Shown: piece after piece, positions 5,471 to 62,691 of the stretch
Layout: each line of letters begins with the position of its first letter
Numbering within the stretch: position 1 is the first letter of the stretch
From: Halobacteriales archaeon YIM A00013
GTDB lineage: Archaea; Halobacteriota; Halobacteria; Halobacteriales; Haloarculaceae
DNA length: 64,000 bases
Assembly (NCBI GenBank): GCA_025041195.1
Contig: JAKCFM010000001.1
Span: 1,922,001-1,986,000 of the forward strand
Direction of reading: 5' to 3'
The notes under the pieces: generated by a model
What the model saw: the letters and a program-made list of their open reading frames with translations, nothing else
Databases searched by the model: none
What the model was told of the DNA's origin: nothing
Made by a program: the position numbers and the translations under genes

Positions 5471-7384
5471 TCAGGCGAAAAAGAAGATCAACACGCTAAC
5501 GGCAAACACCGCCATGATGAACGCTGCTGCGAGCGCACCGGCCATTGAGGTCATCACGTTGGCGTGGCTGGCGAGCGTCTCGGTCCGGTCATTGCCAAAG
5601 ACGGTGACTGTCGCGCGTTCGACGTTCATCCCCGCCTCGACGGGTTCGATGTCGTCAATCGCCGCGGCAAGGAGGTCATCAATCCGAGCGAGCAGCTCAG
5701 CCGTGTCGATCGCACCACCAACCTGGTTTTCGGCATCAACCGTGTTGACAACGTGCGTATCGGTGGTCATCACCTCTGCGTGTTCGATCGTCTTGGCCAC
5801 GCCACTGGCACCTCCATCAGCTGCGACCGGTTGCGTCGCAGTGGTGGTGAGATGGGTGACAATTCGATCACGAAGTCCGGGCTCCATATTGTTGCCGTCA
5901 ACGAGCACGTACGCGGTGCGTTGGGTGCCGGACTCAACGACGGCGACGCGAATCCCGAGCGGACCGATCCCGTCCGCTGGCGTCCAGTCCGTGGGATCCC
6001 AGGCGACGCCCAGTGACAGGGCCGCTCGGCTAGTTGTCGTGAGCGATTCGCCGAGTTCATCTGCGGCGTGGAGCATCGAAAACGACCGTTTTGATCCCGG
6101 CGTCACGTGGCCAAGATCTGCACCACCGAGGCCGTTGTTGCAGTTGTGCGCATCAACGAGCATCACGTTCTCCAGGCCGTCGCGCATGGCACGAGAGCTC
6201 GCAGATAGGCCAACGGAGTACTCCACATCGTCGGCAAATGAGGGTGAATACGTTCCCACGAGCAACGCGCCGTTCCCGAACGACTGTCCGAGCATTGTCA
6301 GCTCGCCGTCCTGCTCAAGAAATGCGTTCGTGGCCTCGCCGTCGTAGCTGATGCGTTCGTAGGCACGATCGGCAGCGTCAATGATCGTGTCGACTTCGCG
6401 TTCGGTAACGAGATTGAAATCGTGACCGGCAGTGGCGTGTGGTGGAAATCCCAGCCCATCCGTGTTTTCGGCCACGCGTTCGGGGAGATTGCCGCCACCA
6501 ATCTCACCCATTGGCCCGGGGTGGATCATCGGGAGAACGAATCTGGCTTTTTCCGTCTGATCAGCCGCTCGACGGAACGAAAGGACGGAGACGGGGACGA
6601 TCGCCTCCTCACCCAGCTGTTCGAAGAAATCCTCGAGTTCGCGCGAGCCCTCGGCGATGTGGCCTACGAACCCTCGGATGAAATCCAGCACGCTCACGCC
6701 GAGGCTGTTTTGCCACGGTCGATCGATCGTCACCATAAACAGCCAGGTGGCGATCGCATACAACACACAGATCCCTCCGAGCAGGAGAAAATCCTTGGGG
6801 ACGAACACATCGAAACCGCCGGGAGCGTGATTTGAGCGCGCGAAAAACGACTGGATGATCGGCCCACCGATTTCAAGATACGTGATCGTTCCGCTGTAGA
6901 TAAACAACAACATCGCGCCAGCAAGCGTCTGAATGCTCGCCGGAATAGACGCAATCAACAACGATTTTCGGGAGATAGCCATCACGACGAGCAGTCGAAT
7001 CGCAAAGATGCTCGCCAGCGCCACAATGAGCGTATCGAAAACGAACTCCTCATCGAGAGCGGTCAACACTGCGATCGCACCCGCAGCCGTCAGAATCCCG
7101 ACAACGAGGAGTTCACAGAACAGTGCGAGCAGCGACGCCCGATTCGGTGTGAGCTGCCCACCAAGGCGCTGGTCGACGTACGGCGTGAAGATGCTTGCCA
7201 GCACCGTCGGAATGCCGACGAAAAAGATGCCTTGCCAGGCATCATCGAGAACGAATTCGTTTTCAAACGCAGCGAGACCCATCAACGCCGCAATAATAAG
7301 CGAGAACACGACGCTGGCGTACCAGCTGGGCGCGCGAAAGATAAATCGGGAGAGGCCCGCCAGATCGCCTTGCGATTGAGTCAT
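5471..7384 (-). CDS. DUF2070 family membrane protein
   Basis: A 637-residue protein. The N-terminal third (about residues 20-200) contains six or so hydrophobic segments, and a final hydrophobic helix ends at VFAVSVLIFFFA. The large central part is soluble and has conserved elements such as FVLPMIHPGPMGEIGGGNLPE, VDAHNCNN and YVLVDGNNMEPGLRD. This is the archaeal DUF2070 family, of unknown function. The HPGP and DAHNC blocks hint at a metal- or phosphate-binding site. It starts 8 nt after the guaA stop, so the two are probably cotranscribed. Confidence 0.85.
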   Translation of the reverse strand: MTQSQGDLAGLSRFIFRAPSWYASVVFSLIIAALMGLAAFENEFVLDDAWQGIFFVGIPTVLASIFTPYVDQRLGGQLTPNRASLLALFCELLVVGILTAAGAIAVLTALDEEFVFDTLIVALASIFAIRLLVVMAISRKSLLIASIPASIQTLAGAMLLFIYSGTITYLEIGGPIIQSFFARSNHAPGGFDVFVPKDFLLLGGICVLYAIATWLFMVTIDRPWQNSLGVSVLDFIRGFVGHIAEGSRELEDFFEQLGEEAIVPVSVLSFRRAADQTEKARFVLPMIHPGPMGEIGGGNLPERVAENTDGLGFPPHATAGHDFNLVTEREVDTIIDAADRAYERISYDGEATNAFLEQDGELTMLGQSFGNGALLVGTYSPSFADDVEYSVGLSASSRAMRDGLENVMLVDAHNCNNGLGGADLGHVTPGSKRSFSMLHAADELGESLTTTSRAALSLGVAWDPTDWTPADGIGPLGIRVAVVESGTQRTAYVLVDGNNMEPGLRDRIVTHLTTTATQPVAADGGASGVAKTIEHAEVMTTDTHVVNTVDAENQVGGAIDTAELLARIDDLLAAAIDDIEPVEAGMNVERATVTVFGNDRTETLASHANVMTSMAGALAAAFIMAVFAVSVLIFFFA

Positions 7385-7392
7385 GCGAGCGC

Positions 7393-7941
7393 CTACTCAC
7401 AACGGCGACGGAAGTTCTCGAACAGTTCTGTCCCAGCCTCGGTGTGTGCAACCTCGGGATGCCACTGGACGCCATACAGCTCTTCGTCGGTGTTGCTCAT
7501 GGCCTCTATCGAACAGACGTCGCTCGTTCCGGTCAGGGTGAAATTTTCTGGCAGTGCCGTCACTTCATCGGCGTGACTCGCCCAGACGCGCGTGGATGGA
7601 CCAAGCGATCCAACAAGCGGGTCCTCATCTGCAACGATTGCAACGTCAACGTCCGCATAGCCGCCGTACTCTCCAGTTCCAACCGTCCCACCGAGCGAGT
7701 CGGCAATCAGCTGCATCCCCAGACAGATGCCGAGTATCGGGATATCCAGATCGAGATACGCAGTACACTGACCGATGTCTGTCATATCCGGGCCGCCTGA
7801 CAACACAAGGCCGTCGGCATCGATTTCTGCTGGAGGAGTGGTGTTGTCGATGAGTTCGGTTTTCACGCCGATATCACGGAGGGCGCGATGCTCAAGATGC
7901 GTAAACTGACCGTGATTATCGACCACATCGATGCGAACCAT
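7393..7941 (-). CDS. guaA: GMP synthase, glutamine amidotransferase subunit A
   Basis: A 182-residue class I glutamine amidotransferase, encoded separately from the ATP pyrophosphatase subunit as is normal in archaea. The oxyanion/nucleophile site GICLGMQ (Cys around residue 74) and the late GVQWHPEV (His and Glu of the triad) are both present. It supplies ammonia for conversion of XMP to GMP. The synthetase subunit is not in this window. It is followed 8 nt later by the DUF2070 gene. Confidence 0.92.
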   Translation of the reverse strand: MVRIDVVDNHGQFTHLEHRALRDIGVKTELIDNTTPPAEIDADGLVLSGGPDMTDIGQCTAYLDLDIPILGICLGMQLIADSLGGTVGTGEYGGYADVDVAIVADEDPLVGSLGPSTRVWASHADEVTALPENFTLTGTSDVCSIEAMSNTDEELYGVQWHPEVAHTEAGTELFENFRRRCE

Positions 7942-14842: not shown

Positions 14843-15068
14843 GACGGTATAGCCATCAGCATCGAATATTTTTCCAGCTACGTCACAGGTCATCCGAATG
14901 AGCAAGCAACCGTTAGTATATTGGTTGAAATGTATTCGCCCAAGATTACACAAATACTTCATCAGTACCAGCAGAAAGGGGTCAATAGGTCACGTTTCCC
15001 ACTGCTCTCATCGACCGATTTTAGATCTGTAGTTGATCGATAGGCCAGCCGAATTCCTTTCGAGTGAC

Positions 15069-15596
15069 CTAGTCGGTAGTGATTCTGGCCAGCGCTGGAT
15101 GCTGCTCTGCGAGCCCTGTCGGACAACCAAGACTCCGATACCGACCATACGAATCGAGCAGTTCGATCAGGCCATCAGCTGCACTCGCACAGCCAGGTCG
15201 GTCAATCGTTTCCAGTGGTGATTTCGGATCAGAGAGGGGAAACGTCACCTGGTGAATCTCGCCTGTTCTCGTTTCGTGGTAGCGGATTTTTGCGCCGGTA
15301 TCGAATGTCGCGGCCACGACCGTTTCGCCCGTTGCGCGATAGCGCGTAATTCGCTCGATTCCGGGGAGATGTTCAAAACTCGTCCGTTCGCTCGCCAAAT
15401 CGGCCATCGTCAGAATCTGCTCAATTCTGGTAGCGTGGGGACAGCCAGTGGATTGACAGGGCCGGCACCAGGTTCCTTGACCGATATCCACCACGTGATA
15501 GAGCTCCGCTTCAGAAAGCTCGCTCCGTGAATCCACCGTCGAGAGATTCACACAGTTGCGATCCTCGTCACGAAAGAGAAACAGCGGCAGCGTCAT
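15069..15596 (-). CDS. Cassette copy 1: 175-aa Cys-rich protein (family E)
   Basis: A 175-residue protein of no family I recognise, present three times in this window at exactly the same length. Visible features: MTLPLFLFRDEDRNCVNLST at the start, a probable metal site TWCRPCQSTGCPHATRIEQ (C-x2-C-x4-C-P-H, about residues 41-56), then GIERITRYRATGETVVAATF and a C-terminal DSYGRYRSLGCPTGLAEQHP. The ATG overlaps the stop of the 45-residue zinc-finger-like gene by 4 nt (ATGA), which points to translational coupling. The longer frame from 15701 covers the microprotein in another frame and is not favoured. Could be an effector or a partner of the small protein. Confidence 0.75.
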   Translation of the reverse strand: MTLPLFLFRDEDRNCVNLSTVDSRSELSEAELYHVVDIGQGTWCRPCQSTGCPHATRIEQILTMADLASERTSFEHLPGIERITRYRATGETVVAATFDTGAKIRYHETRTGEIHQVTFPLSDPKSPLETIDRPGCASAADGLIELLDSYGRYRSLGCPTGLAEQHPALARITTD

Positions 15597-15730
15597 CGAC
15601 GACCCCACAGCGGACAGCACAGATGGTGATCGCGATGGCCTCGAAGCTGTCGCCGACAGACGACACAGCTGTGGCTGTAGTAGTTCATCGAGTCGGTACA
15701 ATTACGGTCGCGTGTGTTCTCCCATTGCAT
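15593..15730 (-). CDS. Cassette copy 1: 45-aa zinc-finger-like microprotein
   Basis: A 45-residue protein beginning MQWENTRDRNCTDSMNYYSH with the motif C-x2-C-R-R-Q-L (Cys 22, Cys 25), then DHH and CCPLWGRR at the C-terminus. Cys 22, Cys 25, His 35 and Cys 39 are kept in all three copies and could bind one zinc. Against copy 2, differences over the last 24 codons include seven silent third-position changes (for example TGT/TGC, CGG/CGT, CTG/CTC, GGT/GGG), so this frame is under protein-level selection. Its TGA overlaps the next gene's ATG. Likely a regulator or partner of the 175-aa protein. Confidence 0.75.
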   Translation of the reverse strand: MQWENTRDRNCTDSMNYYSHSCVVCRRQLRGHRDHHLCCPLWGRR

Positions 15731-15760
15731 GGGCAATCGCATCTCGTGAGAGCCCAGCGT

Positions 15761-15860
15761 CGGGTGCTTGGACCACCCGGCGCATTCAACACGAACGCGC
15801 AACGCCCTCGCGGCGCAGCTGTGCCCTCGTGTTGCTATGCCTTCCCGATCGGTTATAAAG
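15761..15860 (-). promoter_or_regulatory. Promoter and two-hairpin leader of cassette copy 1
   Basis: On the minus strand a TATA element (TTTATAA, about 15852-15860) is followed by a roughly 100-nt leader. Hairpin 1 (15782-15798) has stem GCGTTC/GAATGC. Hairpin 2 (15761-15779) has stem CGGGTG/CACCCG with a 7-nt loop. The same two stems occur at the other two cassettes, while the 7-nt loops differ. Upstream of the TATA box a 25-bp block containing ATAATTGTGAA (plus strand) is also shared and may be an operator. Confidence 0.65.
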
Positions 15861-15896
15861 TTATTTAGGAATAATTGTGAAAGACTGTTCGAATAA

Positions 15897-16058
15897 CAAG
15901 ACCAGTGGAAGCTCCACCACGAGAATCAGCAGGTTCCGGAGGGAAGCGTGCGTGCATCAAGCGAACTCACGATAGGACAGCCCCCCAACGCGACCACTCT
16001 CAGTGTCCGAGAACTGGCCGAACTGAACTGTTACGACGCTGAGTTCGAACGTCGGTAA
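15897..16058 (+). other. Possible gene remnant or micro-ORF
   Basis: The plus-strand frame is open from the stop at 15894 and reads KLHHENQQVPEGSVRASSEL, TIGQPPNATTLSVRELAELN and CYDAEFERR, ending TAA at 16058. It looks strongly protein-like but has no ATG; a GTG at 15948 would give 36 residues. It begins exactly where similarity among the three cassette upstream regions ends. A 3' remnant of a displaced gene is the best guess. Confidence 0.35.
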
Positions 16059-16172
16059 ACCGATCTAGAGCGCAAACAGCGTCCGCACTCAACAGCGCCG
16101 TGAGTTGGTGATCGGCCATGCGATACACTCAGATCGCCCCCCACGGTGGTCGTCTGCAGCCGCGACTGATCA

Positions 16173-17435
16173 TCAGGTGAACCACTCGGGGCGGGATATC
16201 TCCCCCACGAGCCGGCGGGCTGCCAGCGCAAAAAGCAGTAACACGCCCCACACTCCCGGTTGCGCCCAGTAGAACGGCTGCAGTGCCGTGATTGACGGTA
16301 CCCACTCGGGGAGCACGGTGACCACGAACCAGAGGCCGTGTGCATGCCCACCAACAAGCACGGCTCCGAGAATCGGGAGAACTGGATGGCCGTCCTCGCG
16401 TTCGAGTTCGATTGCCAGCAGCAGAACGACCGCCGGCAGGGCCGCAACGAGATAGTAAGTGTAAGTCACCGGCGCAAGCAGTGGAATCCCAACCGCACCG
16501 AGCGCAAACGATTCGCGTTCACCGTCAGCGCCAGCCAGCAAAGCACCGGTGGCGATGGCAATCACAGCGCCGTAGCGAACCAGCGATTTGGCGGGGATTC
16601 CCTGCAGCGGACGGAAGTATGGCGGCAGCCACAGCGACGGCGGCCGGGTCTGTGGATCAGAGACGGCTCCCCACTGGAGCACCTCCAGATACGCGAGCAC
16701 GGAATCGACACCAAAGCCCACAACAGTGGTGATGAGAAGGACAACTCCGGTGACAATCGCGCCAGCGAATCGGTCGCGATCAGCCAACAGATGGGCCCCC
16801 GCGGTTGCGTATGGGAGTTTGATGAGCCCAACGATTGCCGTGAGCGCACCGCTCGCAATTCGGGTGGATTTGGGGTTTGCAGTCGCCGAAGCCCGCTCGT
16901 CCGCAGGGGTATTCCAGAGCATTGCCGCCAGCGCCAGAGACAGAAGCCCGCCCTGAAAGCCAGCCATCTGGCCGAGTTTCAATGAGATGAGCAGCGGCTG
17001 AAATCCGAGCAGGACCCAGAGCAAGACCAGTCGCTCCAGCAAATGGAGTTTGAGCCCCAGGGCCCCAACGATGAGCTGGAGACCAATCCACAAAAGCGCC
17101 ACCGAGAACGCACCCCACACGATTGCACCCTCTGGGTGGGCGAACAGCTCCACGAACGGCCAGAACACGAGCACCACGAACGGTGGATAGAGATAACTGC
17201 CGTGATAGCCGCCATCGGCGTTCTGCTGATAGAGCGACACGCCCGTTTTCCAGCGCTCTACTGCGCCACCGTACACGCCAAAATCGAAGTACTGGTACGT
17301 CGCTGCAATATCCCTGGACTGGAGCCAAAGGTCAACGAACGGATAGACGAGAAAGAACCCGAGCCCACCCAGTGCAACGATGACGAACACGGGTCGGCGC
17401 TTGCGAAGGGCCCAGAGCGAAGCTAGTGCAGCCAT
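16173..17435 (-). CDS. GT87-family membrane glycosyltransferase
   Basis: A 420-residue integral membrane protein with about ten hydrophobic segments. Features of the DUF2029/GT87 family are visible: DFGVYGGAVERWKTGVSLYQ after the first membrane helix, YLYPPFVVLVFWPFVELF, and later YFRPLQGIPAKSLVRYG. Family members use polyprenyl-phosphate mannose to add sugars on the outer face of the membrane. It stands alone between cassette copy 1 and a family D gene, and its GC-rich composition contrasts with the AT-rich neighbours on its right. Confidence 0.8.
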   Translation of the reverse strand: MAALASLWALRKRRPVFVIVALGGLGFFLVYPFVDLWLQSRDIAATYQYFDFGVYGGAVERWKTGVSLYQQNADGGYHGSYLYPPFVVLVFWPFVELFAHPEGAIVWGAFSVALLWIGLQLIVGALGLKLHLLERLVLLWVLLGFQPLLISLKLGQMAGFQGGLLSLALAAMLWNTPADERASATANPKSTRIASGALTAIVGLIKLPYATAGAHLLADRDRFAGAIVTGVVLLITTVVGFGVDSVLAYLEVLQWGAVSDPQTRPPSLWLPPYFRPLQGIPAKSLVRYGAVIAIATGALLAGADGERESFALGAVGIPLLAPVTYTYYLVAALPAVVLLLAIELEREDGHPVLPILGAVLVGGHAHGLWFVVTVLPEWVPSITALQPFYWAQPGVWGVLLLFALAARRLVGEISRPEWFT

Positions 17436-17598
17436 GGCATCGGAGGTTCCTATTAGCGTCGAGAAATGTCTTGTGATGCGATTCGACTGCTGGGTTGTTC
17501 AGAACAGTGCTAGCTCAAGGCATCGCGGACGAATACGCTGTACAGTTTGATCCAACGGAACGGTCTGGTGGGAGTGGCCGCTATATCCGTCGAATTTT

Positions 17599-18384
17599 AT
17601 GGTCTTCGATCAATTAGTACCATATCAACCACAAAGTGATGTACAAGTGATTGACGAGATAAATAATAGTTTTGTAGGAATGTATCATGATGCCGGTGGA
17701 GGGTGGGGATTAAAAACCCCAGGAAAAGTATCGCGTAGTTCAGAACTGTATGATAGATTTATAGACGTTACACAAGTCGTGCTTGAAGCCTGTGAAGGAT
17801 TTATACGTCCAACAGAACTCGAGTATTCCCTTCGGAAATATTCTGCTGACGGACCAATTGAGAGTATTGGCCCAACAGATAACTCATATAAGTCGAATTT
17901 GATCTCGAATGAAAGACATACCATGGCGGATGATTGCGGAGTATCTATTGAAGATTTAACATCTAATTTGGATGAATGTCAAAAAGAAGATATATGTGTC
18001 ATTGGTGATATTGAATCAACTCGTGAGAACGTCTATATCACCCTGCGGGATTACGAAGGATGGATTAATCGGGGACATAGAGAAAGGATCAAACCTGCGA
18101 AGTATAATCAGATCTATGAAGGAGAAGCATATCACGATCCAATAGGATTTCATATTCGCCATTATACCACCTCATCAAAATCTACACCGAGAAGATCCCA
18201 ATTTGCCTTGCATGTTAATACATCGACTGACATCTGGTTCAAGGAGACTCCTGTCGGACGCGCAAATCGAACGCGCCTCGTGGAATTCTTTGAAGAATTG
18301 TATGAAGAATTGGAAATAGTAGACGCCGTTGTAACCTCAGAAGGGAAAAATCAAACCCTTCGTGAGTTACTTCCCAATGAATGA
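17599..18384 (+). CDS. Unknown protein, family D (intact copy)
   Basis: A 261-residue protein with no recognised family. Codons are markedly AT-rich (runs such as AAT AAT AGT TTT GTA GGA), unlike the core genes, which suggests transfer. Blocks shared with the broken copy at 62692 are ACEGFIRPTE, GPIESIGPTD, VIGDIES, LRDYEGW, DPIGF and TSTDIWFKETPVGRANR. No signal peptide or membrane helix is present. Both copies lie beyond a cassette on the plus strand. The role is unknown; an immunity-type function is a guess from context. Confidence 0.7.
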   Translation: MVFDQLVPYQPQSDVQVIDEINNSFVGMYHDAGGGWGLKTPGKVSRSSELYDRFIDVTQVVLEACEGFIRPTELEYSLRKYSADGPIESIGPTDNSYKSNLISNERHTMADDCGVSIEDLTSNLDECQKEDICVIGDIESTRENVYITLRDYEGWINRGHRERIKPAKYNQIYEGEAYHDPIGFHIRHYTTSSKSTPRRSQFALHVNTSTDIWFKETPVGRANRTRLVEFFEELYEELEIVDAVVTSEGKNQTLRELLPNE

Positions 18385-18572
18385 TATAATTCCAATCAGT
18401 AATATCCTATTATTGAAAATGCACACAACCGTGTCGGTAAGAGAACTCTGAAATCAGTACGAGAAAGGCAGCAACGATTGAGACTGGAAAGTCTCACCTG
18501 GGGACCCTTAAGTAGTCAAGAAATATACTGGCAGATAATAATTGTTTTCTTTATTGAAGCTAGTAACCAATT

Positions 18573-19196
18573 ATGATTCCCTCTGCCAAGGAGTCGATGA
18601 CAGATCCAGACGGATTTTTCAGCGATCGGATATCGGAGTTACAGCTCCGATTCTCCCTTATCATAGTCGTCGCGTACATCATTAGCCGTGCGTTGGCGTT
18701 TTTCCCAGCTTTGCTTCCAGTCGAAGGAGAATTACATATTCTCGTACTCTATGGATTAACTGGGTTTCTGTTGGGAAGTTCCATGGTCGGATTCGTTGGC
18801 TGGATATTCTACAGCGTGATATTATATCTCCTCTCTGCACTGTTTCGTGGTTCAGGATCGTTCCGTCAAACGATGGCAATGACAGCGTGGGGGTTTATTC
18901 CGATGATACTCGGACAGTTGCTCTCCTGTGTCGCCACTATTATTTCGGTGCTGGATGAGCCATCGGTATCAGTTGCGTCAGGAAACGAACTATCTGCAGT
19001 AATCTCACAGACCAGGAGCGGCCCTCTGTTTGTGATTGTGTCACTCGCTATGATGGCTTTTAATATTTGGTCTGCCTATATTTGGATCTACGGACTGCAA
19101 CACGCACGGGACCTTTCAAAACGGCAAGCATTCATCGTTGTGGGGTTGCCAATAAGTTTTGGCATTATAGTCAAGCTTTTGTTCAGCCTATCATAG
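18573..19196 (+). CDS. Yip1-domain membrane protein
   Basis: A 207-residue protein with five hydrophobic segments. MTDPDGFFSDRI at residue 9, FYSVILYLLSALF, TMAMTAWGFIPMILGQLL and WIYGLQHARDLSKRQAFIVV match the layout of archaeal Yip1-domain proteins. A second, only distantly similar member lies at 42330-43043 with the same start pattern (TDPESFF). The function of archaeal Yip1 proteins is not known. ATG 18573 follows an AT-rich promoter region; ATG 18597 is an alternative. Confidence 0.75.
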   Translation: MIPSAKESMTDPDGFFSDRISELQLRFSLIIVVAYIISRALAFFPALLPVEGELHILVLYGLTGFLLGSSMVGFVGWIFYSVILYLLSALFRGSGSFRQTMAMTAWGFIPMILGQLLSCVATIISVLDEPSVSVASGNELSAVISQTRSGPLFVIVSLAMMAFNIWSAYIWIYGLQHARDLSKRQAFIVVGLPISFGIIVKLLFSLS

Positions 19197-19526
19197 TATA
19201 TACCGATTATTTCGGCACCAATAAACCGCCAAATAATATGAATCAGCGTGCTTGTATTTGTCATAGCAAATACTAGATGGCTCCCACTCAACGGCGGTCT
19301 GGTTTTTGTCGCATACTGTATCGGTAATCGATTCAGTGAGTGTGGTGTTTATTAAGACGATGGGATCGTCTGGTACGGTCGCTCTGGCCCACTGCGAGAC
19401 TGGTATTCAGCTCATCCGGACCGGACGATCTGTTCGATGAGCTCCCCACTGAGATCGATGCATGCAATTCGGCCGTACCATCGCGTGGGTTCACTGTCGT
19501 CTCCGAGAATCCCCCCTCAGGCGGAG
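19197..19526. other. 330-nt stretch without a convincing gene
   Basis: Short protein-like bits are present, for example minus-strand TRWYGRIACIDLSGELIEQI ending at a TGA near 19428, but each is closed by a stop within about 35 codons. It may hold debris of former genes downstream of the broken family C gene. Confidence 0.4.
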
Positions 19527-20006
19527 CTATTGGTAGGAACGGTCAGAAGATTCCAATCGATCGAAAATATCGGTCCGCAGGGCAGGAACAAAGAGAACAT
19601 CGCCTGCAGTAACGGCTTCAGTCTCGAAAAATGACGCAATGGCCTCGTGAATACCAACAACAACTGTCCCGACTCCCGAATCCAACAGAAAATGATCGTC
19701 CTCGATCCCGACGACCTCACCGACAAAATCATAACTCCACTCGCTCCGTCGATCAGTCGGTGGGTATATTCCGACCTCCGCAGCCCTGCAGCTGTGTAAT
19801 TCATCCCCTGGAAGGAGTGTAACGGCGATGTCTGTGGTCGTCCCGATCAGTGTCGAATCCAACGAAGGAGCATGCTTATCGAACAGTCTGAGTGTTTGGC
19901 CGGTATTGATCCGTACCACAGCAGTTTGTTCGTAAACATGGTCTCATACACCGTCACCGGCGTAACGTCTTCGATCTGTACCGTTATTCTTGGTTCTGAA
20001 GTCATT
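19527..20006 (-). pseudogene. Family C gene, copy 2, frameshifted
   Basis: Paralogue of the gene at 24564-25034. The shared core is SEWSYDFVGEVVGI against TKWSYDYVGELTGI. The N-terminus MTSEPRITVQIEDVTPVTVY begins at 20006 in one frame, and the rest (EQTAVVRINTGQTLRLFDKH onward) is in another. Restoring one T in the T3 run at 19934-19936 gives MFYEQTAVVRI, aligning with TIYDQTVVGRL of the intact copy. So a single-base deletion in an A/T run has split it. The 130-residue frame from 19919 could still be translated from an internal start. Function unknown. Confidence 0.65.
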
Positions 20007-20014
20007 GTTCGGAC

Positions 20015-20107
20015 CTACTCTGAACAAGCAAATAATTCATTCACAAATTCTAGAAGATATGGTAACCAATCTATTTTCTCGATCTCATCCAACAGTCCAT
20101 ACGTCAT
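20015..20107 (-). CDS. Possible 30-aa ORF or gene fragment
   Basis: The frame MTYGLLDEIEKIDWLPYLLE then FVNELFACSE ends at 20015, just before the family C start at 20006. The sequence looks like a real amphipathic helical segment, and the frame continues upstream with DSLRFEE before losing character. Either a microprotein cotranscribed with the neighbours or the tail of a lost gene. Confidence 0.35.
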   Translation of the reverse strand: MTYGLLDEIEKIDWLPYLLEFVNELFACSE

Positions 20108-20181
20108 CTCTTCGAAACGCAGTGAATCACCAGCTGATGGGGTATAGGAATCGGTGGTGGACAGGATGGAGGAGGATTCCC

Positions 20182-20709
20182 CTAGTTGGTGGTGATTCTG
20201 GACAGTGCTGGATGCTGGTCTGTGAGTCCAGCGGGGCAGCCAAGGCTCCGATACCGACAGTACGAATCCAGGAGCGTGAGCAATCCGTCGGCTGCACTCG
20301 CACAACCGGGTCGATCGATCGTTTCAAGTGGCGATTTTGGATCTTCAGCGGGGAACGTCACCTGGTGGATCTCCCCATCGCGCGTTTCGTGATAGCGGAC
20401 TTTTGCACCAGTGTCGAAAAATGCCGCCACAACCGTCTCGCCGGTGGCCTGATAGCGCGTGATTCGTTCGATCCCGGGAAGGTGTTCGTAGCTCGTCCGT
20501 TCGCTCGCGAGATCGGCCATCGTCAGAATCTGCTCGATTCTGGTGGCGTGCGGACAGCCCGTCGATTGACACGGTCGACACCACGTTCCTTCGCCGATGT
20601 CGATCACGTGGTAGAGCTCTGCCTCAGAAAGCTCATCGCGGGAATCGACCGTCGAGAGGTTCACGCAGTTGCGATCCTCGTCGCGAAACAGAAACAGTGG
20701 CAGCGTCAT
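20182..20709 (-). CDS. Cassette copy 2: 175-aa Cys-rich protein (family E)
   Basis: Same length as copies 1 and 3 and very similar throughout: MTLPLFLFRDEDRNCVNLST, TWCRPCQSTGCPHATRIEQ, TMADLASERTSYEHLPGIER, ending PAGLTDQHPALSRITTN. Differences include FFDTGAKVRYHETRDGEIHQ and LLTLLDSYCRYRSLG. ATG 20709 overlaps the stop of the 45-aa gene by 4 nt. The broken family C gene lies downstream and the family A array upstream, so this copy is embedded in the array. Confidence 0.75.
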   Translation of the reverse strand: MTLPLFLFRDEDRNCVNLSTVDSRDELSEAELYHVIDIGEGTWCRPCQSTGCPHATRIEQILTMADLASERTSYEHLPGIERITRYQATGETVVAAFFDTGAKVRYHETRDGEIHQVTFPAEDPKSPLETIDRPGCASAADGLLTLLDSYCRYRSLGCPAGLTDQHPALSRITTN

Positions 20710-20843
20710 CGTCGCCCCCACAGCGGACAGCAGAGCGCGTGATCGCTACGTGACCCAAGCTGGCGACGACAGACCAGGCACGTGTGATTGTAATGACTGT
20801 TCGAGCCGGTACTGTTACGTGTGTATGAATCGTTCCCTGTCAT
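20706..20843 (-). CDS. Cassette copy 2: 45-aa zinc-finger-like microprotein
   Basis: Exactly 45 residues again, MTGNDSYTRNSTGSNSHYNH then TCLVCRRQLGSRSDHALCCPLWGRR split by the same C-x2-C-RRQL and CCPLWGRR blocks. The N-terminal 20 residues diverge from copies 1 and 3, while the putative ligands Cys 22, Cys 25, His 35 and Cys 39 are unchanged. The equal length at all three loci, despite divergence, supports the ATG at 20843. Confidence 0.75.
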   Translation of the reverse strand: MTGNDSYTRNSTGSNSHYNHTCLVCRRQLGSRSDHALCCPLWGRR

Positions 20844-20872
20844 GGGATTCTCCACTCTGAGAACCCCAGCGT

Positions 20873-20975
20873 CGGGTGGTACCAGCACCCGGCGCGTTCA
20901 AACACGAACGCACAACGTCCGAACGACGCCGCCGAAGTCCTCGTGATAGTATGGCTTCCCGATCGCTTATAAAGT
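20873..20975 (-). promoter_or_regulatory. Promoter and two-hairpin leader of cassette copy 2
   Basis: The TATA element on the minus strand lies around 20967-20973. Hairpin 1 (20894-20911) has stem GCGTTC/GAACGC, where the G-U pair of copies 1 and 3 is replaced by G-C. Hairpin 2 (20873-20891) keeps stem CGGGTG/CACCCG with a different 7-nt loop. The pattern of kept stems and changed loops supports RNA structure. Confidence 0.65.
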
Positions 20976-21115
20976 TATTTTGGAATAATTGTGAATGACT
21001 GTTCAAATAACATGTGCGTGTGGGTGCTGCGCTTGCGGAGAATCCTGTCTCGGTATTTCACTACCGGTCCAGTGCCCGTTCGGGTACTCGGAATGTAAGT
21101 GAACGGGGACATCAC

Positions 21116-21703
21116 TTACGTGGGTGAATCAATCGCGTCCTCCAACTGCTGGATATGAGTGGTGGCCCAATCAGTAGCGACAGCCAGTTCTCCAGGAATA
21201 TTGTCATACTCCACATGTACTCGTTCGGCAAATTCGACGCACTGTTCGAAGCATCCGATGAGTTCTTGACAGACAGCGTCTGGATTGACTGCATAGCCAA
21301 CAGTCGACTGTAGTGGAAAATACTCCCTGTACTCTGGGGTGGTTGGTTGTACCGCGAGTCGTACATTGTTCCCGTCACAAAATGAGACTACAATACAGCA
21401 AAATTCAGTCCCTTCCATGATCTCGATCGGGATTGCTTCGTACCGATCTACGGTTCCTGTTTGGAAACGGACGATGGCTTCGGTGAAATCCTGCAAAATA
21501 AAGCTTAGATATTCGCCAATATACTGGGTCGTATCAATGATCTCCTTCCCGTTGGCAGCGTAATTCGCGGCACCGCAATACTCGTTCGTGAGTTGGGTCA
21601 GGATATCACCATCCACCTCCAGTCGGATCCCTCCGATATCGTAGCCTGGAAACTCTGTGCAGTGGGGCGGCGAATTGAATCCAACAGAGATGTCTATACT
21701 CAT
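21116..21703 (-). CDS. Unknown protein, family A, copy A1
   Basis: A 195-residue protein, one of six tandem paralogues. Shared blocks are GGIRLEVDGDILTQLT (about residues 24-39), YIGEYLSFILQDFTEAIVRF (about 61-80), VSFCDGNNVRLAVQP (about 106-120), TVGYAVNP and the C-F-E-Q-C motif, then WATTHIQQLEDAID at the C-terminus. The C-[FY]-x-x-C pair and the Cys of SFCDG are kept in every copy, suggesting a metal site or disulphide. No membrane helix or signal peptide. No family was recognised. The stop is 270 nt upstream of cassette copy 2, same strand. Confidence 0.7.
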   Translation of the reverse strand: MSIDISVGFNSPPHCTEFPGYDIGGIRLEVDGDILTQLTNEYCGAANYAANGKEIIDTTQYIGEYLSFILQDFTEAIVRFQTGTVDRYEAIPIEIMEGTEFCCIVVSFCDGNNVRLAVQPTTPEYREYFPLQSTVGYAVNPDAVCQELIGCFEQCVEFAERVHVEYDNIPGELAVATDWATTHIQQLEDAIDSPT

Positions 21704-21788
21704 TGCCCCTATTTTGACAGTGTGAATATAACTCCTTTATAGGAGTGAATGGATCTGCCACGCATTTCAAAAACGAATCCTGGGGATC

Positions 21789-22376
21789 TCAAGCAGAATC
21801 AATCGCGTCCTTTAACTGCTGGATATGCTTTGCAGCCCAATCCCTGACTTCGGCGAGTTCCTCAATCATATCATCGTATTCTCCGTACGCAATTTCTGCA
21901 AATCTCACACAGTCTTCGTAGCATTCGATGATCTCCTGTCCAAGTTCGTTTGGGTCTACCACATGGCCAACAGTAACGTCTGTGGGGAAATGCCGCCCAT
22001 ATTCAGCCCTTCGGGGTTGGAATGCGATGCGAGCGTGCTCACCATCGCAAAACGAGAGCGTCACGAACCCGATCCCCGGCTCTCCGGTCATCTTCGCTAC
22101 AAGAATCTCGTGTCTATCGAGATCATTGCGGAGAAATCGATGAGTGATCTCTTTCAAATGTAATAGGCCAAAATCAATATCTTCTCCAACGAATTCTTCA
22201 GGATTCGGAAGCCGCTCACCTGAAAGGGAATATCGTGCTGCTGGGTCGGAACGATCAGTATAACGTGTTAGAATGTCCCCATCGATACTGATTCGGATCC
22301 CTCCATCAAGATATCCAGGGTACCCAGCAATCTCGGTTGAACGATGATACCCAAACTGACATCCATAGTTCCACAT
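21789..22376 (-). CDS. Unknown protein, family A, copy A2
   Basis: A 195-residue paralogue with a distinct N-terminus (MWNYGCQFGYHRSTEIAGYP) and the family blocks GGIRISIDGDILTRYT, FVGEDIDFGLLHLKEI, LSFCDGEHARIAFQP, TVGHVVDPNELGQEIIECYEDC and WAAKHIQQLKDAID. It lies 85 nt upstream of A1 on the same strand. Like the others it is acidic and looks cytosolic. Confidence 0.7.
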   Translation of the reverse strand: MWNYGCQFGYHRSTEIAGYPGYLDGGIRISIDGDILTRYTDRSDPAARYSLSGERLPNPEEFVGEDIDFGLLHLKEITHRFLRNDLDRHEILVAKMTGEPGIGFVTLSFCDGEHARIAFQPRRAEYGRHFPTDVTVGHVVDPNELGQEIIECYEDCVRFAEIAYGEYDDMIEELAEVRDWAAKHIQQLKDAIDSA

Positions 22377-22632
22377 TGGTGACTTACCATCTTGCTATCG
22401 AACGTGTTAGAGTATAACTTCATGTCGTTTTGCTATTATGGCCCTTGAGATACCGTTCACACGTGGCGATTTCCTTGTGTGAGTGTGTAGTACTCTCGTA
22501 GTGGGGTGCATGGAGAACAGAAGCACTAATGAATTTGTTTACGCTAGCAAATCGACTAGAAACCTCAACAATTCCATTATTATTCTGAATAGCCTGCAAT
22601 GATAGCAAAAGCTACGAATGAGAAATTTGTTA
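22377..22632. other. 256-nt spacer between A3 and A2
   Basis: AT-rich spacer, the widest inside the family A array. A 62-codon minus-strand frame (22420-22608) exists but lacks motifs or a matching paralogue and is not called. The spacer may carry a separate promoter for A2 and A1. Confidence 0.35.
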
Positions 22633-23227
22633 CTAAGGTGTTTCTATGGCCTTCTCAAGGCGTTGTATCTCACCCTCAGCCCACTCATGAACATCTGAAA
22701 CTTCGGCTTCGTACTCCGGATTGTCACCGTACGCAATGTCAATGTACTGTGTGCAGTCTTTGTAGCACTCTATTAGTTCACGACATACATTGTCAGGATC
22801 CACAGCGTATCCAACAGTTACCTCGGTAGGGAACTGCTCTGCTATCCCAGACGCTTTCGGCTGATACGCCATTCGGACATGGTCTCCGTCACAAAACGAA
22901 AAAACGACCGTACTATCGCCTGGCGCGACGACCATGGGTGCAGATAATTGTTCGTATCGATCGAAGTTGTTATGCTGGAATCGGATGATTGCATCTGATA
23001 ATTTGTATAAACTGAGATTGAGATCTTCTCCAACATAAAAACTCTGGATTTGCTAACCGATTCCCCGCAGAATCATAGCGGGCAAAGCTGTTGTACGTGG
23101 GAATACGTCGCGTTAGAACCTTCTTTCCAACGGTAATACAGACCCCACCATACTCAAATCCGGTAAATATCTCTTCCTGCGGTCTTCTATGATATCCTAG
23201 ACGAATTTTTACAGGTTTAGCTGTCAT
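22633..23227 (-). pseudogene. Family A, copy A3, frameshifted in a T5 run
   Basis: The N-terminal part (MTAKPVKIRLGYHRRPQEEI ... GNRLANPEF, start 23227) and the C-terminal part (MVVAPGDSTVVFSFCDGDHV onward, ending 22633) are in different frames. Removing one A from the A5 run at 23037-23041 (plus strand) restores FYVGEDLNLSLYKLSDAIIR, which matches the YVGExLxxxLxxLxxAI block of the family. All other family blocks (FPTEVTVGYAVDP, ECYKDC, EGEIQRLEKAIE) are intact, so the mutation is recent or the frame can be switched. Confidence 0.75.
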
Positions 23228-23292
23228 AGTATTGTATGTTCTGTCATTTCACAACCATCCAAACTGTTATCGCTGGGGTTGCGATCGGATAG

Positions 23293-23886
23293 TCAGGTAT
23301 CGAGCTCGTCAAGAACCCCTTGTAACTCCTGGATATTGTTTTGTGACCATTCATATGCTTCCCACATCGGTCCATTCCAAGATTCATCACCATGGAAATT
23401 CCCGACATAAGTGAAGCAATCCTGATAACAGGTGAGTAACGCTTCACAAAGGTCTCTCAGATCAACCGCATAGCCGATTGCTACTCGTGGTGGAAAGTAG
23501 TTGGTATGCTCATCAGTGATCGGTTGAAATGCAATGCGTACGTTAGCTCCATCACAGAACGACAGCACAAAACAACCGAACGGTTCCTCTGCTCCAATTT
23601 CAGCGGGGACTTCCTCGTAGCGACCAATATCACTGGTTGAGTAGCGTATGATGGCTTCTTTGAGGTGGTTCAGTGAGAAACTCAAATACTCACCGACGTA
23701 TTCATCCGAATTTGGCACCTCATTCCCTTCTTTGTCGTACACTATTCTATCCCAATTTGGTTCGGTATACTGAGTGAGGGCTGTACCATCAATTGCCACT
23801 CGTATGCCACCATCGACAAGGCTTGTATAATCGGCATCTACAGGAGGGGACAGAAATCCCACAGATAGTGAGAGAGTTGGAGCCAT
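23293..23886 (-). CDS. Unknown protein, family A, copy A4
   Basis: A 197-residue paralogue: GGIRVAIDGTALTQYT, YVGEYLSFSLNHLKEAIIRY, LSFCDGANVRIAFQP, AIGYAVDLRDLCEALLTCYQDC and a more divergent tail WSQNNIQELQGVLDELDT. The FHGDESWNGPMW insert before the tail is unique to this copy. It follows family B copy 1 by 133 nt on the same strand. Confidence 0.7.
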   Translation of the reverse strand: MAPTLSLSVGFLSPPVDADYTSLVDGGIRVAIDGTALTQYTEPNWDRIVYDKEGNEVPNSDEYVGEYLSFSLNHLKEAIIRYSTSDIGRYEEVPAEIGAEEPFGCFVLSFCDGANVRIAFQPITDEHTNYFPPRVAIGYAVDLRDLCEALLTCYQDCFTYVGNFHGDESWNGPMWEAYEWSQNNIQELQGVLDELDT

Positions 23887-24019
23887 GGCTACTATTACAC
23901 ACCGTAGATACTGTTATTTTCTATTTTTCCAAGACCTTCTTCTGAAGAAAATGGATAGAATAGAACCCGTAGACGCTGGCAGTGGTGCAGTATCTGCACT
24001 CAAAACTGTTCACCCAATC

Positions 24020-24556
24020 TCACTCTGCATTACCCGAATTAGCCGCAATGAGTGCTTCGAGCTCTGTGATTTTCCCTGAAAGATGCCCTATCCCTGCGTT
24101 ATCACGCAAATCGGGGGCCAGGGTTATGACTGTCTCCCTGAAATCCTTCGCAATTTCCAGAACAGCCTCCGTCCACGCCTGTTTGGTGACTGGGAGGGAT
24201 CGTTCGATATCGAGCCGTTTGGAGGGATTATACGCGTGTTTTTCGAAAACACAGTATGTAACCGTGTTGGTGTGGTCATCACGTGGTGCAACGAAAATAT
24301 AGGAAGGGCCATAGTCGAGCACGATCAGATGATCCTCCGCAGCGTGAGTACGACAAACAGATTTGATGAGATTTGATATAATGGTATACGCAAGTCCTGT
24401 ATGGTTATACTCAGGATTCAATACGTGGGTGTCCCCTATTAGTATCAAAATCTCAGCCCATCCATCTGGGTCGGATCGCTCTTCAATCTCGGTGTAAAAA
24501 TCGTCTCTGTACGAAAGACGAATTTCGGCGTCCGCAGGGACACATTCATCGCTCAT
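24020..24556 (-). CDS. Unknown protein, family B, copy B1
   Basis: A 178-residue protein, the same length as its paralogue B2. Shared blocks are GLAYTIISNLIKSV / GLATDIVIKSLASV, DYGPSYIFVAPRDD / EDGPSWIVVEPHGN, NPSKRLDIERSLPVTKQAW / NPDDRLDIESQIPVTKRAW and the helix VLEIAKDFRETVITLAPDLRD. No family was recognised. The start at 24556 is fixed by the equal length of B2; the frame is open to a TTG at 24589. It starts 7 nt after the family C stop, so C and B1 are probably cotranscribed. Confidence 0.7.
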   Translation of the reverse strand: MSDECVPADAEIRLSYRDDFYTEIEERSDPDGWAEILILIGDTHVLNPEYNHTGLAYTIISNLIKSVCRTHAAEDHLIVLDYGPSYIFVAPRDDHTNTVTYCVFEKHAYNPSKRLDIERSLPVTKQAWTEAVLEIAKDFRETVITLAPDLRDNAGIGHLSGKITELEALIAANSGNAE

Positions 24557-24563
24557 TATTGGA

Positions 24564-25034
24564 CTATGATCTCGAATCAGTATACTCAATTATATCTGAT
24601 CTACAATCAGGAACAGAGAGATAGCTCCCCATTGCGATTTCATTCTCGTCGATCCATTCTACAATATCACACGCATAGCCAGAGACGGTCACTGATCCAT
24701 GCTCGATATCGAGTGTTATCGAGCGGTTGTGGCAGTTTATTCCAGTAAGCTCTCCAACATAGTCATAGCTCCACTTTGTAGTGGGTTCTGGCGGGCGAGA
24801 CACCCCGCGCGCTCTCGTTACAACGGCGATATCGTTGACATCCAGTGAAAGTCCTACGTGCAAATCTATTTTACAGCCAATCATGTCTTCAGATACAATT
24901 GGCGTTGTGAGGTCGAAGAGAGTAATGCGATTCCCAGTGCACAATCTTCCAACAACAGTCTGATCATAAATAGTTCCCTGATACACAGCCTCAGGTTCAA
25001 CCTCTATAATTTTCGCCGGTAATGAAGATATCAT
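24564..25034 (-). CDS. Unknown protein, family C, copy 1 (intact)
   Basis: A 156-residue, apparently all-beta protein. It contains GTIYDQTVVGRLCTGNRITLFD, LHVGLSLDVNDIAVVTRARG, KWSYDYVGELTGINC and SITLDIEHGSVTVSGY, a strand pattern that could form two small barrels. No family was recognised. ATG 25034 is the first ATG of the frame. It sits 66 nt after A5 and 7 nt before B1 in transcription order. Its broken paralogue lies at 19527-20006. Confidence 0.7.
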   Translation of the reverse strand: MISSLPAKIIEVEPEAVYQGTIYDQTVVGRLCTGNRITLFDLTTPIVSEDMIGCKIDLHVGLSLDVNDIAVVTRARGVSRPPEPTTKWSYDYVGELTGINCHNRSITLDIEHGSVTVSGYACDIVEWIDENEIAMGSYLSVPDCRSDIIEYTDSRS

Positions 25035-25100
25035 AGACAATTAGCTAGTGATATTTGTGCTCCTCTATTAGTATTTCGTCTATATTATATGATGGAATGG

Positions 25101-25694
25101 TTACTTAGTTGTATCTATGGCGTTCTCAAGACGTTGAATCTGTCCGTTCGCCCACTCGTTAACTTCGTCGACAGCATGTGCAAGTTCTGGTCGGTCCGCA
25201 AAGGCAGTCTCGAAGTAAGCAACACAATCCCCATAGCAGTTGATCAATTCGTAGCACATTTCATCCGGGTCAATTGGATGGCCAACAGTTGATTTCGTTG
25301 GTATCAGTTCTTGATCAGAAGGAGAGGCTGGTTGCAACGCAATCCGGACATTCTCCCCATCACAAAATGACAATATAAGCACTTTATTGCCAGCCTTTCC
25401 GTCTATCCGTGTCGAGATCTCAGTGAATCGATCAAATTCACTCGTTTGGAATGTAATAATAGCGTCAGTAATACCGATAAGATTCACATCTAGATTCTCG
25501 CCAACATAGCAATCTCGGGCATCTATCCTGTCGCCAGAAAGGGTGTATCGAGTATACCCATCGAGCTCCAGAGTATATTTTGTCAAAATTTCATCGCCGA
25601 CATCAATTCGAATGCCACCATCTTCGATCCCTGGAAACATCGTTTCGTCTGGGTGGGCAAAAAATCCCACCGTTATAGTGATTGGAGCGGTCAT
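25101..25694 (-). CDS. Unknown protein, family A, copy A5
   Basis: A 197-residue paralogue: GGIRIDVGDEILTKYT, YVGENLDVNLIGITDAIITF, LSFCDGENVRIALQP, TVGHPIDPDEMCYELINCYGDC and WANGQIQRLENAIDTTK. It has the full length and all conserved Cys. It is encoded upstream of C and B1 in the same direction. Confidence 0.7.
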   Translation of the reverse strand: MTAPITITVGFFAHPDETMFPGIEDGGIRIDVGDEILTKYTLELDGYTRYTLSGDRIDARDCYVGENLDVNLIGITDAIITFQTSEFDRFTEISTRIDGKAGNKVLILSFCDGENVRIALQPASPSDQELIPTKSTVGHPIDPDEMCYELINCYGDCVAYFETAFADRPELAHAVDEVNEWANGQIQRLENAIDTTK

Positions 25695-25850
25695 CGGCCA
25701 CCGTATCCTCCACCAAGGACTTTCACGCTACTACATCTATCACCCACCATTGATGACCTTTTGAATAATTCGTTTCGACGAACGGTACTGTACAGCCCGA
25801 TCGAATGGTGAGGAGAGAGTCCGAAACGACCCAAACCTACTTGCAGTATT

Positions 25851-26486
25851 TTATAGCTGCCCAACGAACCGACGCGGAGGTAAGATTGTATTAGTCTGAA
25901 TCAATCGCCGCCTGGAGTGCCTGAGTATGATTGTCGGCCCAATCACGCACTTCATTGCCTCATCATTTTCAACATGCATTCCATATGCCCGTTCAGCGAA
26001 GGTAACGCAGTCCTCAAAGCACGCAATGAGCTCCTGACACAGTTCGATTGGATCAACTGCATACCCCACTGTTACAGCAGTCGGGAAGTAGTCGCTATAT
26101 TCTGCAGATCGTGGTTCAAACGCAATTCGTGCATGCTCACCATCGCAAAATGATAGCGTCACTACACCGATCCCCGGCTCACCCCAGATAACACTTGGAA
26201 TTGACTGAAATCGTTCGTATTCCTCCGTTCGGAATGTCACCGCTGCCGCTCGTAACCTGGTAAGGTCGGTAGTTACCTCCTCGCCGACGTAGACATCCGG
26301 ATCTGAAAGCGGATTCCCATCCACGTCATACCTCGCACAGTCACCGGACCGACCAGTGTACTTAGTAAGGGGAGTTCCGCTTACCGTTATCCGAATGCCT
26401 CCATCCAGAAATCCTGATAATGGGGCCAGTTCAGGAGAATTCAAAAAACCAACTGATACTGATACTGTATCTGGAATGGTAGACAT
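25851..26486 (-). pseudogene. Family A, copy A6, frameshifted near its 3' end
   Basis: Residues 1 to about 178 carry all family blocks (GGIRITVSGTPLTKYT, YVGEEVTTDLTRLRAAAVTF, LSFCDGEHARIAFEP, TVGYAVDPIELCQELIACFEDC). After NDEAMK the frame leaves the family and runs on to 25851. In another frame the expected tail RDWADNHTQALQAAIDSD follows and stops at 25891. One base is missing near 25951-25955. The altered protein has a basic, different tail. Its ATG directly abuts the stop of B2 (TAGATG), so B2 and A6 are coupled. Confidence 0.7.
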
Positions 26487-27023
26487 CTATAGTTGAATCT
26501 CATCACAATTGGCTGCTGCAAACTCCGTGATTTCTGTGATATTTTTATCGATGCTACGCAAACTGCTACTATCTCGTAGCTCCGGATTTAGATCGATGAC
26601 TGTCTTTTGAAAATCATACGCCATATCAAAAACAGCCTCTGCCCACGCCCGTTTGGTGACGGGTATTTGGCTCTCGATATCGAGTCGATCATCTGGATTC
26701 CTGATATAGTCCTTTTGTACACAATCAACGATATTGACGGAGTCGTTGCCGTGTGGTTCAACGACAATCCAGGAGGGCCCATCTTCGAACGTAATGTAAT
26801 ACCGTTCGTCAGTAATAGCCGCTCGTACTGACGCAAGTGATTTTATTACAATATCAGTTGCTAGACCATCCATATCGTAGTCAAAGTTCCAGAGGGGAGT
26901 TCCTCCAACTTCGATCTGCGTTGTTATCCACATCCCCGGATTTCCATCCTCAGTTACAAACTTCTTGAATTTCGCATCGTAAACGAGCGTGATTGTAGCT
27001 GTATTTGCTAGCTCACTAGTCAT
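26487..27023 (-). CDS. Unknown protein, family B, copy B2
   Basis: A 178-residue paralogue of B1, starting MTSELANTATITLVYDAKFK. The blocks are EDGPSWIVVEPHGN, NPDDRLDIESQIPVTKRAW and FQKTVIDLNPELRD. The frame is open upstream to 27098, but ATG 27023 gives exactly the length of B1. It is the first gene of the leftward array and is directly followed, with no spacer, by A6. Confidence 0.7.
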   Translation of the reverse strand: MTSELANTATITLVYDAKFKKFVTEDGNPGMWITTQIEVGGTPLWNFDYDMDGLATDIVIKSLASVRAAITDERYYITFEDGPSWIVVEPHGNDSVNIVDCVQKDYIRNPDDRLDIESQIPVTKRAWAEAVFDMAYDFQKTVIDLNPELRDSSSLRSIDKNITEITEFAAANCDEIQL

Positions 27024-27311
27024 TAAGAAATTCACCATTTCCACCGTTTTCTTCAGCAATCCCTGCTCCGACACCTCATTCAACGTTCGACGCATCACCT
27101 GCCAGCGAACCAGCTGAGATCGTTGTTACTATCATATTACTATAATTGCCTTGCATTACACTTTCGGAAATGGCCATCTCAACCACAATCGGTACCGACA
27201 CAGCGAGAACGATTCGCGCCACCTAGTGCACAACGCCAGTCCATCTACTGCCCACAACCACACACCGCCGGAAATCCCGCACGTAAAAAAGGTCCACCCC
27301 GAACGACGCCT

Positions 27312-61736: not shown

Positions 61737-62264
61737 CTACTCGGTCGTTATCCGCGCGACGGCAGGGTGGTGCTCCGCAAGGCCGGTCGGACAGCCGAGA
61801 CTGCGATAGCGCCCATAGGAATCGAGCAGTTCGATCAGTCCATCCGCCGCACTCGCACAGCCAGGACGGTCGATTCGTTCGAGCGGTGATTTCGGATCCG
61901 AAGCTGAGAAGGTGAGCTGATGGATTTCGCCCGCTCTCGTTTCGTGGTATCTAACTTTTGCGCCGGTATCGAACGTCGCTGCCACAACGGTTTCTCCGGT
62001 GGCGTGATAGCGCGTGATCCGCTCGATGCCAGGGAGATGTTCGTAGCTCGTCCGTTCGCTCGCAAGATCCGCCATCGTGAGTATCTGCTCGATTCGCGTT
62101 GCGTGCGGACAGCCCGTCGACTGGCATGGACGGCACCACGTTCCCTGGCCGATATCCACCACGTGATAGAGCTCAGCTTCGGAGAGCTCACTCCGAGAGT
62201 CAACCGTTGAAAGGTTCACGCAGTTACGATCCTCGTCCCTGAACAGAAATAGGGGGAGTGTCAT
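61737..62264 (-). CDS. Cassette copy 3: 175-aa Cys-rich protein (family E)
   Basis: Third copy, again exactly 175 residues, closest to copy 1: MTLPLFLFRDEDRNCVNLST, TWCRPCQSTGCPHATRIEQ, GIERITRYHATGETVVAATF, DSYGRYRSLGCPTGLAEHHP. It lies 40 kb from the array, inside core-like genes, with a frameshifted family D gene beyond it on the right. ATG 62264 overlaps the microprotein stop (ATGA). Confidence 0.75.
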   Translation of the reverse strand: MTLPLFLFRDEDRNCVNLSTVDSRSELSEAELYHVVDIGQGTWCRPCQSTGCPHATRIEQILTMADLASERTSYEHLPGIERITRYHATGETVVAATFDTGAKVRYHETRAGEIHQLTFSASDPKSPLERIDRPGCASAADGLIELLDSYGRYRSLGCPTGLAEHHPAVARITTE

Positions 62265-62398
62265 CGTCGCCCCCACAGTGGACAGCCAAGATGATGATCG
62301 CGATGGCCGCGGAGCTGTCGTCGACAGACGACACAGCTGTGACTGTAGTGGTTTAGTGAGCCGGTACAATTACGTACGTCTGTGTTCTCCCATTGCAT
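62261..62398 (-). CDS. Cassette copy 3: 45-aa zinc-finger-like microprotein
   Basis: Beginning MQWENTDVRNCTGSLNHYSH, then C-x2-C-RRQLRGHRDHH and GCPLWGRR. Of the CC pair in copies 1 and 2 only the second Cys remains, which singles out Cys 39 as the likely ligand. The frame is shorter than 60 codons, so it is easily missed. The start ATG at 62398 gives 45 residues as in the other copies. Confidence 0.75.
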   Translation of the reverse strand: MQWENTDVRNCTGSLNHYSHSCVVCRRQLRGHRDHHLGCPLWGRR

Positions 62399-62427
62399 GG
62401 GTGATCATCCGTTTGAGAGCCCAGCGT

Positions 62428-62528: not shown

Positions 62529-62691
62529 TATTTTGGAATAATTGTGAAAGACTGTTATAATGACAAAACTTGTGTGAACGACTTCGCTCCCTCATGGAGG
62601 TACAGCTTCAACAAGTGCGTTCCAGCGCTCGACAGCCACCATACAGACCGGAATTGTGGCTACCACCTCAATTCATACTCCGTAATCACAA

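Follow-up and report, generated by a model that had tools for sequence, protein, structure and literature searches.

Ten leftward genes that fall into only three families of small acidic proteins and occupy 7.5 kb raise the question of why an archaeon would hold an array of diverged paralogues. These genes lie on the minus strand at positions 19527-27023 of a 64,000-nt stretch of DNA (the window) from Halobacteriales archaeon YIM A00013, a haloarchaeon whose genus includes Halocatena pleomorpha, and they comprise six copies of family A, two of family B and two of family C. A preliminary description of the sequence had proposed a possible immunity-gene locus of the kind associated with polymorphic toxins, a proposal now strongly supported by the linkage of the same families to toxin genes elsewhere. 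It had also recognised no toxin in the array and considered an orphan immunity bank, which proved to be the right term: only a toxin tail of about nine codons remains there. Based on genomic context and on the predicted fold of the toxin domain, the array is very probably an orphan immunity bank, that is, an archaeal polyimmunity locus, which in Halocatena would act against BECR RNase toxins of the cell itself and of its congeners. Each A, B or C protein would be a cytosolic immunity protein that binds and thereby inhibits the BECR/EndoU-like RNase domain at the C-terminus of a polymorphic toxin, which its secreted N-terminal domain would deliver. The bank combines relatives of the cell's own cognate gene with relatives of the immunity genes of congeners' toxins and, if expressed, would let the cell withstand attack by kin and by neighbouring cells.

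Toxin genes beside members of the three families

The genome from which the window comes carries a putative toxin-immunity set at 51-54 kb of the contig that also bears the array (locus L018). Its first gene (L018:5285-7117) codes for a 610-aa secreted polymorphic-toxin-like protein and is followed by a B gene that overlaps its 3′ end (7110-7646), by a broken A gene and by a dispersed repeat, R (see below). The N-terminal region of this protein recurs at seven other places in the genome with other C-termini, residues 415-610 recur nowhere else in it, and a profile of the toxin domain matched this genome only once, at 52.5-53.1 kb. The combination of a conserved N-terminal region with a unique or swapped C-terminal domain is the hallmark of polymorphic toxins, and the L018 protein, judged from its sequence, fits this description. 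At several of the seven sites, the N-terminal region is followed by small genes resembling other immunity proteins.

The preliminary description had proposed that related genomes be inspected for single copies of A, B or C beside large secreted proteins with variable C-termini, and such copies were found directly downstream of proteins whose N-termini are conserved. H. pleomorpha (G339), the sole source of an A relative among the named genomes, carries a single A gene 8 nt behind the gene for a 584-aa secreted-looking protein, which shares 38% identity with the L018 toxin almost end to end, the N-terminal 410 residues being the best conserved. At the same chromosomal site as L018, the sister species G183 encodes a toxin with a 95% identical N-terminus and a different C-terminal domain, and A replaces B behind it. 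The G183 toxin in L045 is frame-broken near its 3′ end. Within the genus, the partner of the toxin is A in G183 and H. pleomorpha, B in G392 as well as in the window genome, and C in G277 and G393; the latter two look like near-identical genomes, with no difference in the coordinates of the toxin hits, R or the A/B fragment, and were counted as one. The bank holds all three families that the genus pairs with BECR toxins, and no toxin lies inside it.

Outside the window genome we detected 29 toxin C-terminal domains, 22 of which are followed on the same strand, at a distance of no more than 400 nt, by an A (4), B (10) or C (8) gene as the next neighbour. The toxin of G174 provides a 23rd case, as it overlaps a second A gene that the A profile had missed, and G213 exhibits cassettes in the order toxin-B-toxCT-C-toxCT-C. 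Were the array a lineage-specific expansion of small cytosolic proteins with an unrelated function, such as regulators or anti-viral proteins, its relatives would adjoin toxins by accident. No Pfam or NCBIfam family, no PADLOC match and no informative PHROG match was found for A, B or C, and some A genes that occur singly lack a neighbouring toxin, both of which are consistent with an unrelated function; however, the same-strand placement behind 22 of the 29 toxin domains cannot be accidental, and we regard this reading as highly improbable.

Placement directly behind toxin genes, sometimes overlapping them, would also be expected of toxin-specific chaperones or secretion adaptors. Between the window genome and G183, however, the partner is exchanged together with the C-terminal domain, whereas the export domain at the N-terminus remains 95% identical. 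Moreover, adaptors would not be banked without toxins, and the same families serve toxins with unrelated N-termini: family A alone is found with a 1745-aa protein (L046) and with 385-437-aa proteins (L051-L053), whose N-termini are quite different. We thus consider it improbable, if slightly less so than an unrelated function, that A, B and C are chaperones or adaptors instead of immunity proteins.

Profile searches of haloarchaeal genomes recovered A in 14 of 392 genomes, B in 23 of 292 and C in 15 of 292, while the toxin C-terminal domain was present in 28 of 292. Given these counts, A, B and C are not core genes, and the single-copy core distribution that the preliminary description had named as speaking against its proposal did not occur.

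Predicted fold of the toxin domain and relationships among the families

The AlphaFold2 model of the toxin C-terminal domain has a mean predicted local distance difference test (pLDDT) score of 92. In a Foldseek search, the only solved structure that it matched well was CdiA-CT (7m5f_C; E-value 1.5e-5, probability 1.00), and a sequence profile of the domain also matched 7M5F (E-value 1.3e-6); the Pfam families PBECR1 and EndoU_bacteria were weakly matched, by four members each. 7M5F is a contact-dependent growth inhibition (CDI) toxin of Serratia marcescens that its authors assigned to the BECR RNase superfamily (PMC8616854). Modelling thus assigns the domain a BECR/EndoU-like nuclease fold, which is predicted to be shared among the toxin domains. 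A conserved W, a G-W-x-H-I-x-x-R-H motif and a T-A-Y-P motif could form an active site, and it is only from the fold and these motifs that we infer an RNase activity.

Like the haloarchaeal loci, the CdiA-CT BWH57/CdiI system (7M5F) pairs a BECR-fold toxin domain at the C-terminus with an immunity gene behind it. It differs in that CdiA-CT is delivered by the CDI system of Gram-negative bacteria and in that searches of Protein Data Bank (PDB) sequences with the A, B and C profiles did not retrieve the 98-aa CdiI. A toxin gene with a downstream immunity gene also characterises the type VI secretion system (T6SS)-like contractile-injection pairs of Halogeometricum borinquense, which were tested in Haloferax volcanii (PMC11566945). 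These pairs are tied to a contractile injection system, whereas in the toxins of the window genome the N-terminus is signal-like and a fimbrial adapter domain of the TafE type is weakly matched. The N-terminal ~160 residues of the genus toxins match the TafE family fimbrial adapter (NCBIfam NF052522) with E-values of 9e-7 to 5e-13, but their scores of 29-49 bits against a cut-off of 155 bits place them outside the family, and their TafE-like part is followed by a linker and the toxin domain. Surface display or filament attachment through this domain would be a guess, and a search of the literature for 'Taf' fimbriae in archaea found none.

Comparison of the A and B profiles revealed a relation with 96.5% probability (E-value 8e-10) over 157 columns, which was clear with 17 B sequences in the profile and not with only three; hhalign revealed no relation between A and C. 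These profile comparisons place A and B in one superfamily and C in a second, so that the three families initially recognised hold as groupings but, A and B being distantly homologous, reduce to two superfamilies. Profiles of A, B and C had no significant match among PDB sequences, and a fold search with the A model matched no solved structure, the best E-value being 0.15, for viral polymerases. A few Whirly/PUR-type folds and one Neisseria immunity protein (E-value ~0.25) also appeared in this search, and all of these hits, the polymerases included, were treated as noise. The proposed comparison with known immunity folds therefore produced no match for the A model, nor was a significant match to an enzyme, which would have argued against an immunity role, seen. 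A family-wide metal site formed by C-x-x-C was considered and rejected, as the motif is confined to close A copies and lost in distant A homologues. A/B and C would constitute two new immunity superfamilies, with which many hypothetical haloarchaeal proteins could be annotated, and their genes could be used as bait for haloarchaeal toxins.

Composition and state of the array

The ten genes do lie on the minus strand where they had been placed, and the grouping into diverged paralogue families lies far beyond chance by pairwise identity and E-values. The open-frame A copies (n = 5) exhibit 34-40% identity over ~195 aa to the first copy, B1 and B2 share 39% identity over 167 aa (E-value 2e-36), and C1 and C2 share 32% over 126 aa (E-value 7e-15). 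The finer details of the preliminary description were also borne out: each of the six A copies, broken A3 included, has both SFCDG and C-[FY]-x-x-C, B2 and A6 meet at TAGATG with a gap of 0, C1 and B1 are 7 nt apart, and the proteins are acidic, with an isoelectric point (pI) of 4.05-4.70 for the open copies. What has to be revised is the impression of ten intact contiguous genes, since A3 and C2 are frameshifted, the 3′ end of A6 is altered and C2 is split off by R. Seven genes keep full-length frames, and nine follow one another in the same orientation with gaps of 0-256 nt, C2 being set apart by the R element.

Read along the minus strand, the array begins with a vestige of a toxin 3′ end (27016-27043), about nine codons and a stop (..GNGEFLND*), recognised by its DNA homology to L018, where the toxin ends in ..NNGNGGFLNE*; other B-linked toxins end in a similar style. 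The vestige lies directly upstream of, and overlaps, B2 (26487-27023; 178 aa), which is 88% identical to the B protein encoded directly behind the L018 toxin. Visual inspection of the translated gaps upstream of the remaining array genes revealed no toxin remnants. A6 (25851-26486), which abuts B2, is homologous to the A gene of the toxin locus and is altered by a frameshift after about residue 170. It is followed by A5 (25101-25694; 197 aa), whose AlphaFold2 model has a mean pLDDT of 91, by C1 (24564-25034; 156 aa), which is 43% identical to the C protein encoded directly behind the toxin of the congener G277, and by B1 (24020-24556; 178 aa), which shares 36-39% identity with toxin-linked B genes. 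A4 (23293-23886; 197 aa) is 81% identical to a toxin-linked A of G183 (L045:8183-8785). A3 (22633-23227) is a frameshifted pseudogene detected as two A-profile matches in different frames, and A2 (21789-22376; 195 aa) was assigned by its similarity to the other A copies. The 3′ end of A1 (21116-21703; 195 aa), taken together with R, corresponds to the A-R junction in L018. R itself (20174-21012), an 839-bp dispersed repeat restricted to the genus and recognised by its matches genome-wide, contains an open reading frame (ORF) at 20182-20721 and separates A1 from C2 (19527-20004), which resembles C1 and is frameshifted near 19920.

The ratio of nonsynonymous to synonymous substitution rates (dN/dS) is 0.25 between B2 and the cognate B of L018 and 0.19 between A4 and the cognate A of G183. 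These values point to purifying selection on A4 and B2 for at least part of their history. The remaining bank copies exhibit 32-43% identity to known cognates.

Several observations weigh against an active bank directed at RNase toxins. Seven of the 29 toxin domains have no A, B or C gene found within 400 nt (one of them being the G174 toxin that overlaps a second A), and the A homologues in L047, L049, L050 and L054 have no recognisable toxin beside them. 7M5F itself is without the colicin E5 active-site residues (PMC8616854). Immunity is usually specific, and most A copies reach only 32-43% identity to any known cognate. Finally, with two clearly broken genes and a third, altered one among the ten, part of the bank may be dead.

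This decay, together with the persistence of the toxin-tail vestige and the presence of the R repeat inside the array, is what would be expected if the genes were immunity genes by descent, stranded after replacement of their toxin and now decaying without function. Against such a loss of function stand the seven full-length frames with acidic pI and the low dN/dS of A4 and B2 relative to their nearest toxin-linked relatives, although much of this constraint may predate the relocation of the genes. We consider a wholly decaying locus rather unlikely; as it shares the immunity identity with the orphan bank and disputes only present function, our confidences in the two overlap.

The survey of Zhang et al. 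(2012) reported extended polyimmunity loci from lineages of four bacterial phyla only and found most immunity superfamilies to be missing from archaea (PMC3482391). As in these bacterial loci, paralogous immunity genes lie in tandem on the same strand with no toxin gene inside, there is one bank per genome, and its content varies between close relatives. The array contains at least four distinct immunity-family genes in tandem, linked to toxins elsewhere, uninterrupted by a toxin, in the same orientation and with short gaps. It differs from the bacterial loci in its archaeal host, in a dispersed repeat within the array and in that A, B and C are outside Pfam and NCBIfam families. A recombinase gene lies near several polyimmunity loci as an optional feature (PMC3482391); none was recognised among the array genes and the neighbours scanned, a scan that covered part of the ORFs of the segment. 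A literature search on polyimmunity from 2013 onwards, which did not extend to the work on archaeal polymorphic toxins by Makarova et al. 2019 (mBio), turned up no title with an archaeal subject. The present locus offers a concrete archaeal case, in which a bank can be set beside a toxin, its cognate immunity genes and the swapped versions that congeners carry, and it predicts which species should resist which. To our knowledge, archaeal polymorphic toxins have been little studied.

The R repeat and the origin of the array

R is a dispersed repeat of ~0.8 kb whose 5′ edge is sharp and whose 3′ edge falls close to the stop codon; no inverted repeats were seen in it. It codes for a Cys/His-rich protein of 179-210 aa without a family match. 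In addition to the copy inside the array, the window contains copies at 15068-15898 and 61789-62565. At the protein level, R was matched 24 times in this genome, 17-36 times in four congeners and once in each of two more records, and no match was found outside the genus. Of 12 close R copies, five are neighbours of toxin loci or part of the array.

The array is contained in a species-specific 11.26-kb segment (15899-27162) that is missing from G183, where 74 nt occupy its place (L140) between flanks of 91% and 94% identity. The left edge of this segment coincides with the 5′ edge of the resident R copy at 15068-15898, which is common to both species. None of the six other genomes in the genus has an A array. 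At either end, the array matches one and the same toxin-locus module, since positions 25897-27043 are 86% identical over 1151 nt to the toxin tail-B-A stretch of L018 and positions 20174-21334 are 85% identical to its A-R stretch (L018 8031-9173), with A5, C1, B1, A4, A3 and A2 lying between. This arrangement suggests that the array arose by duplication of a toxin-locus segment followed by expansion. The probable starting event is an ectopic duplication of a toxin tail-B-A-R segment, after which the array expanded; some copies are now decaying. Alternatively, the toxin locus may have collapsed from a larger array. A simple single crossover between R copies was rejected, the inner R copy lying away from the gnd edge. 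We put forward, as a tentative and still doubtful proposal, that the bank was built by copying cognate immunity modules from toxin loci, with the genus-specific R repeats providing the homology through which the modules moved, and that in this way members of all three families came together in one genome.

Within the same segment, just past R and upstream of C2, positions 20015-20150 hold an open remnant (..LRFEEMTYGLLDEIEKIDWLPYLLEFVNELFACSE), perhaps the end of another disrupted gene. A 261-aa protein encoded at 17599-18384, also within the segment, has no Pfam, NCBIfam, PADLOC or PHROG match.

Further toxin-like proteins with solenoid-like repeats are encoded elsewhere in the genome (L058, L059 and L060, at 630, 2127 and 1746 kb of G000:C1, respectively). 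They are adjoined by small membrane-protein-like genes, which probably represent a second immunity class; two paralogues at L060 end in ..LASRIPL. The gene at L061:6413-8836, which codes for a 652-aa toxin-like protein, is followed by a gene for a 140-aa acidic protein, and the two likely form a toxin-immunity pair. Two other toxin-like genes of this genome are broken, one by a frame break (L057:8433-10592) and the other into split frames (L062:10141-12864).

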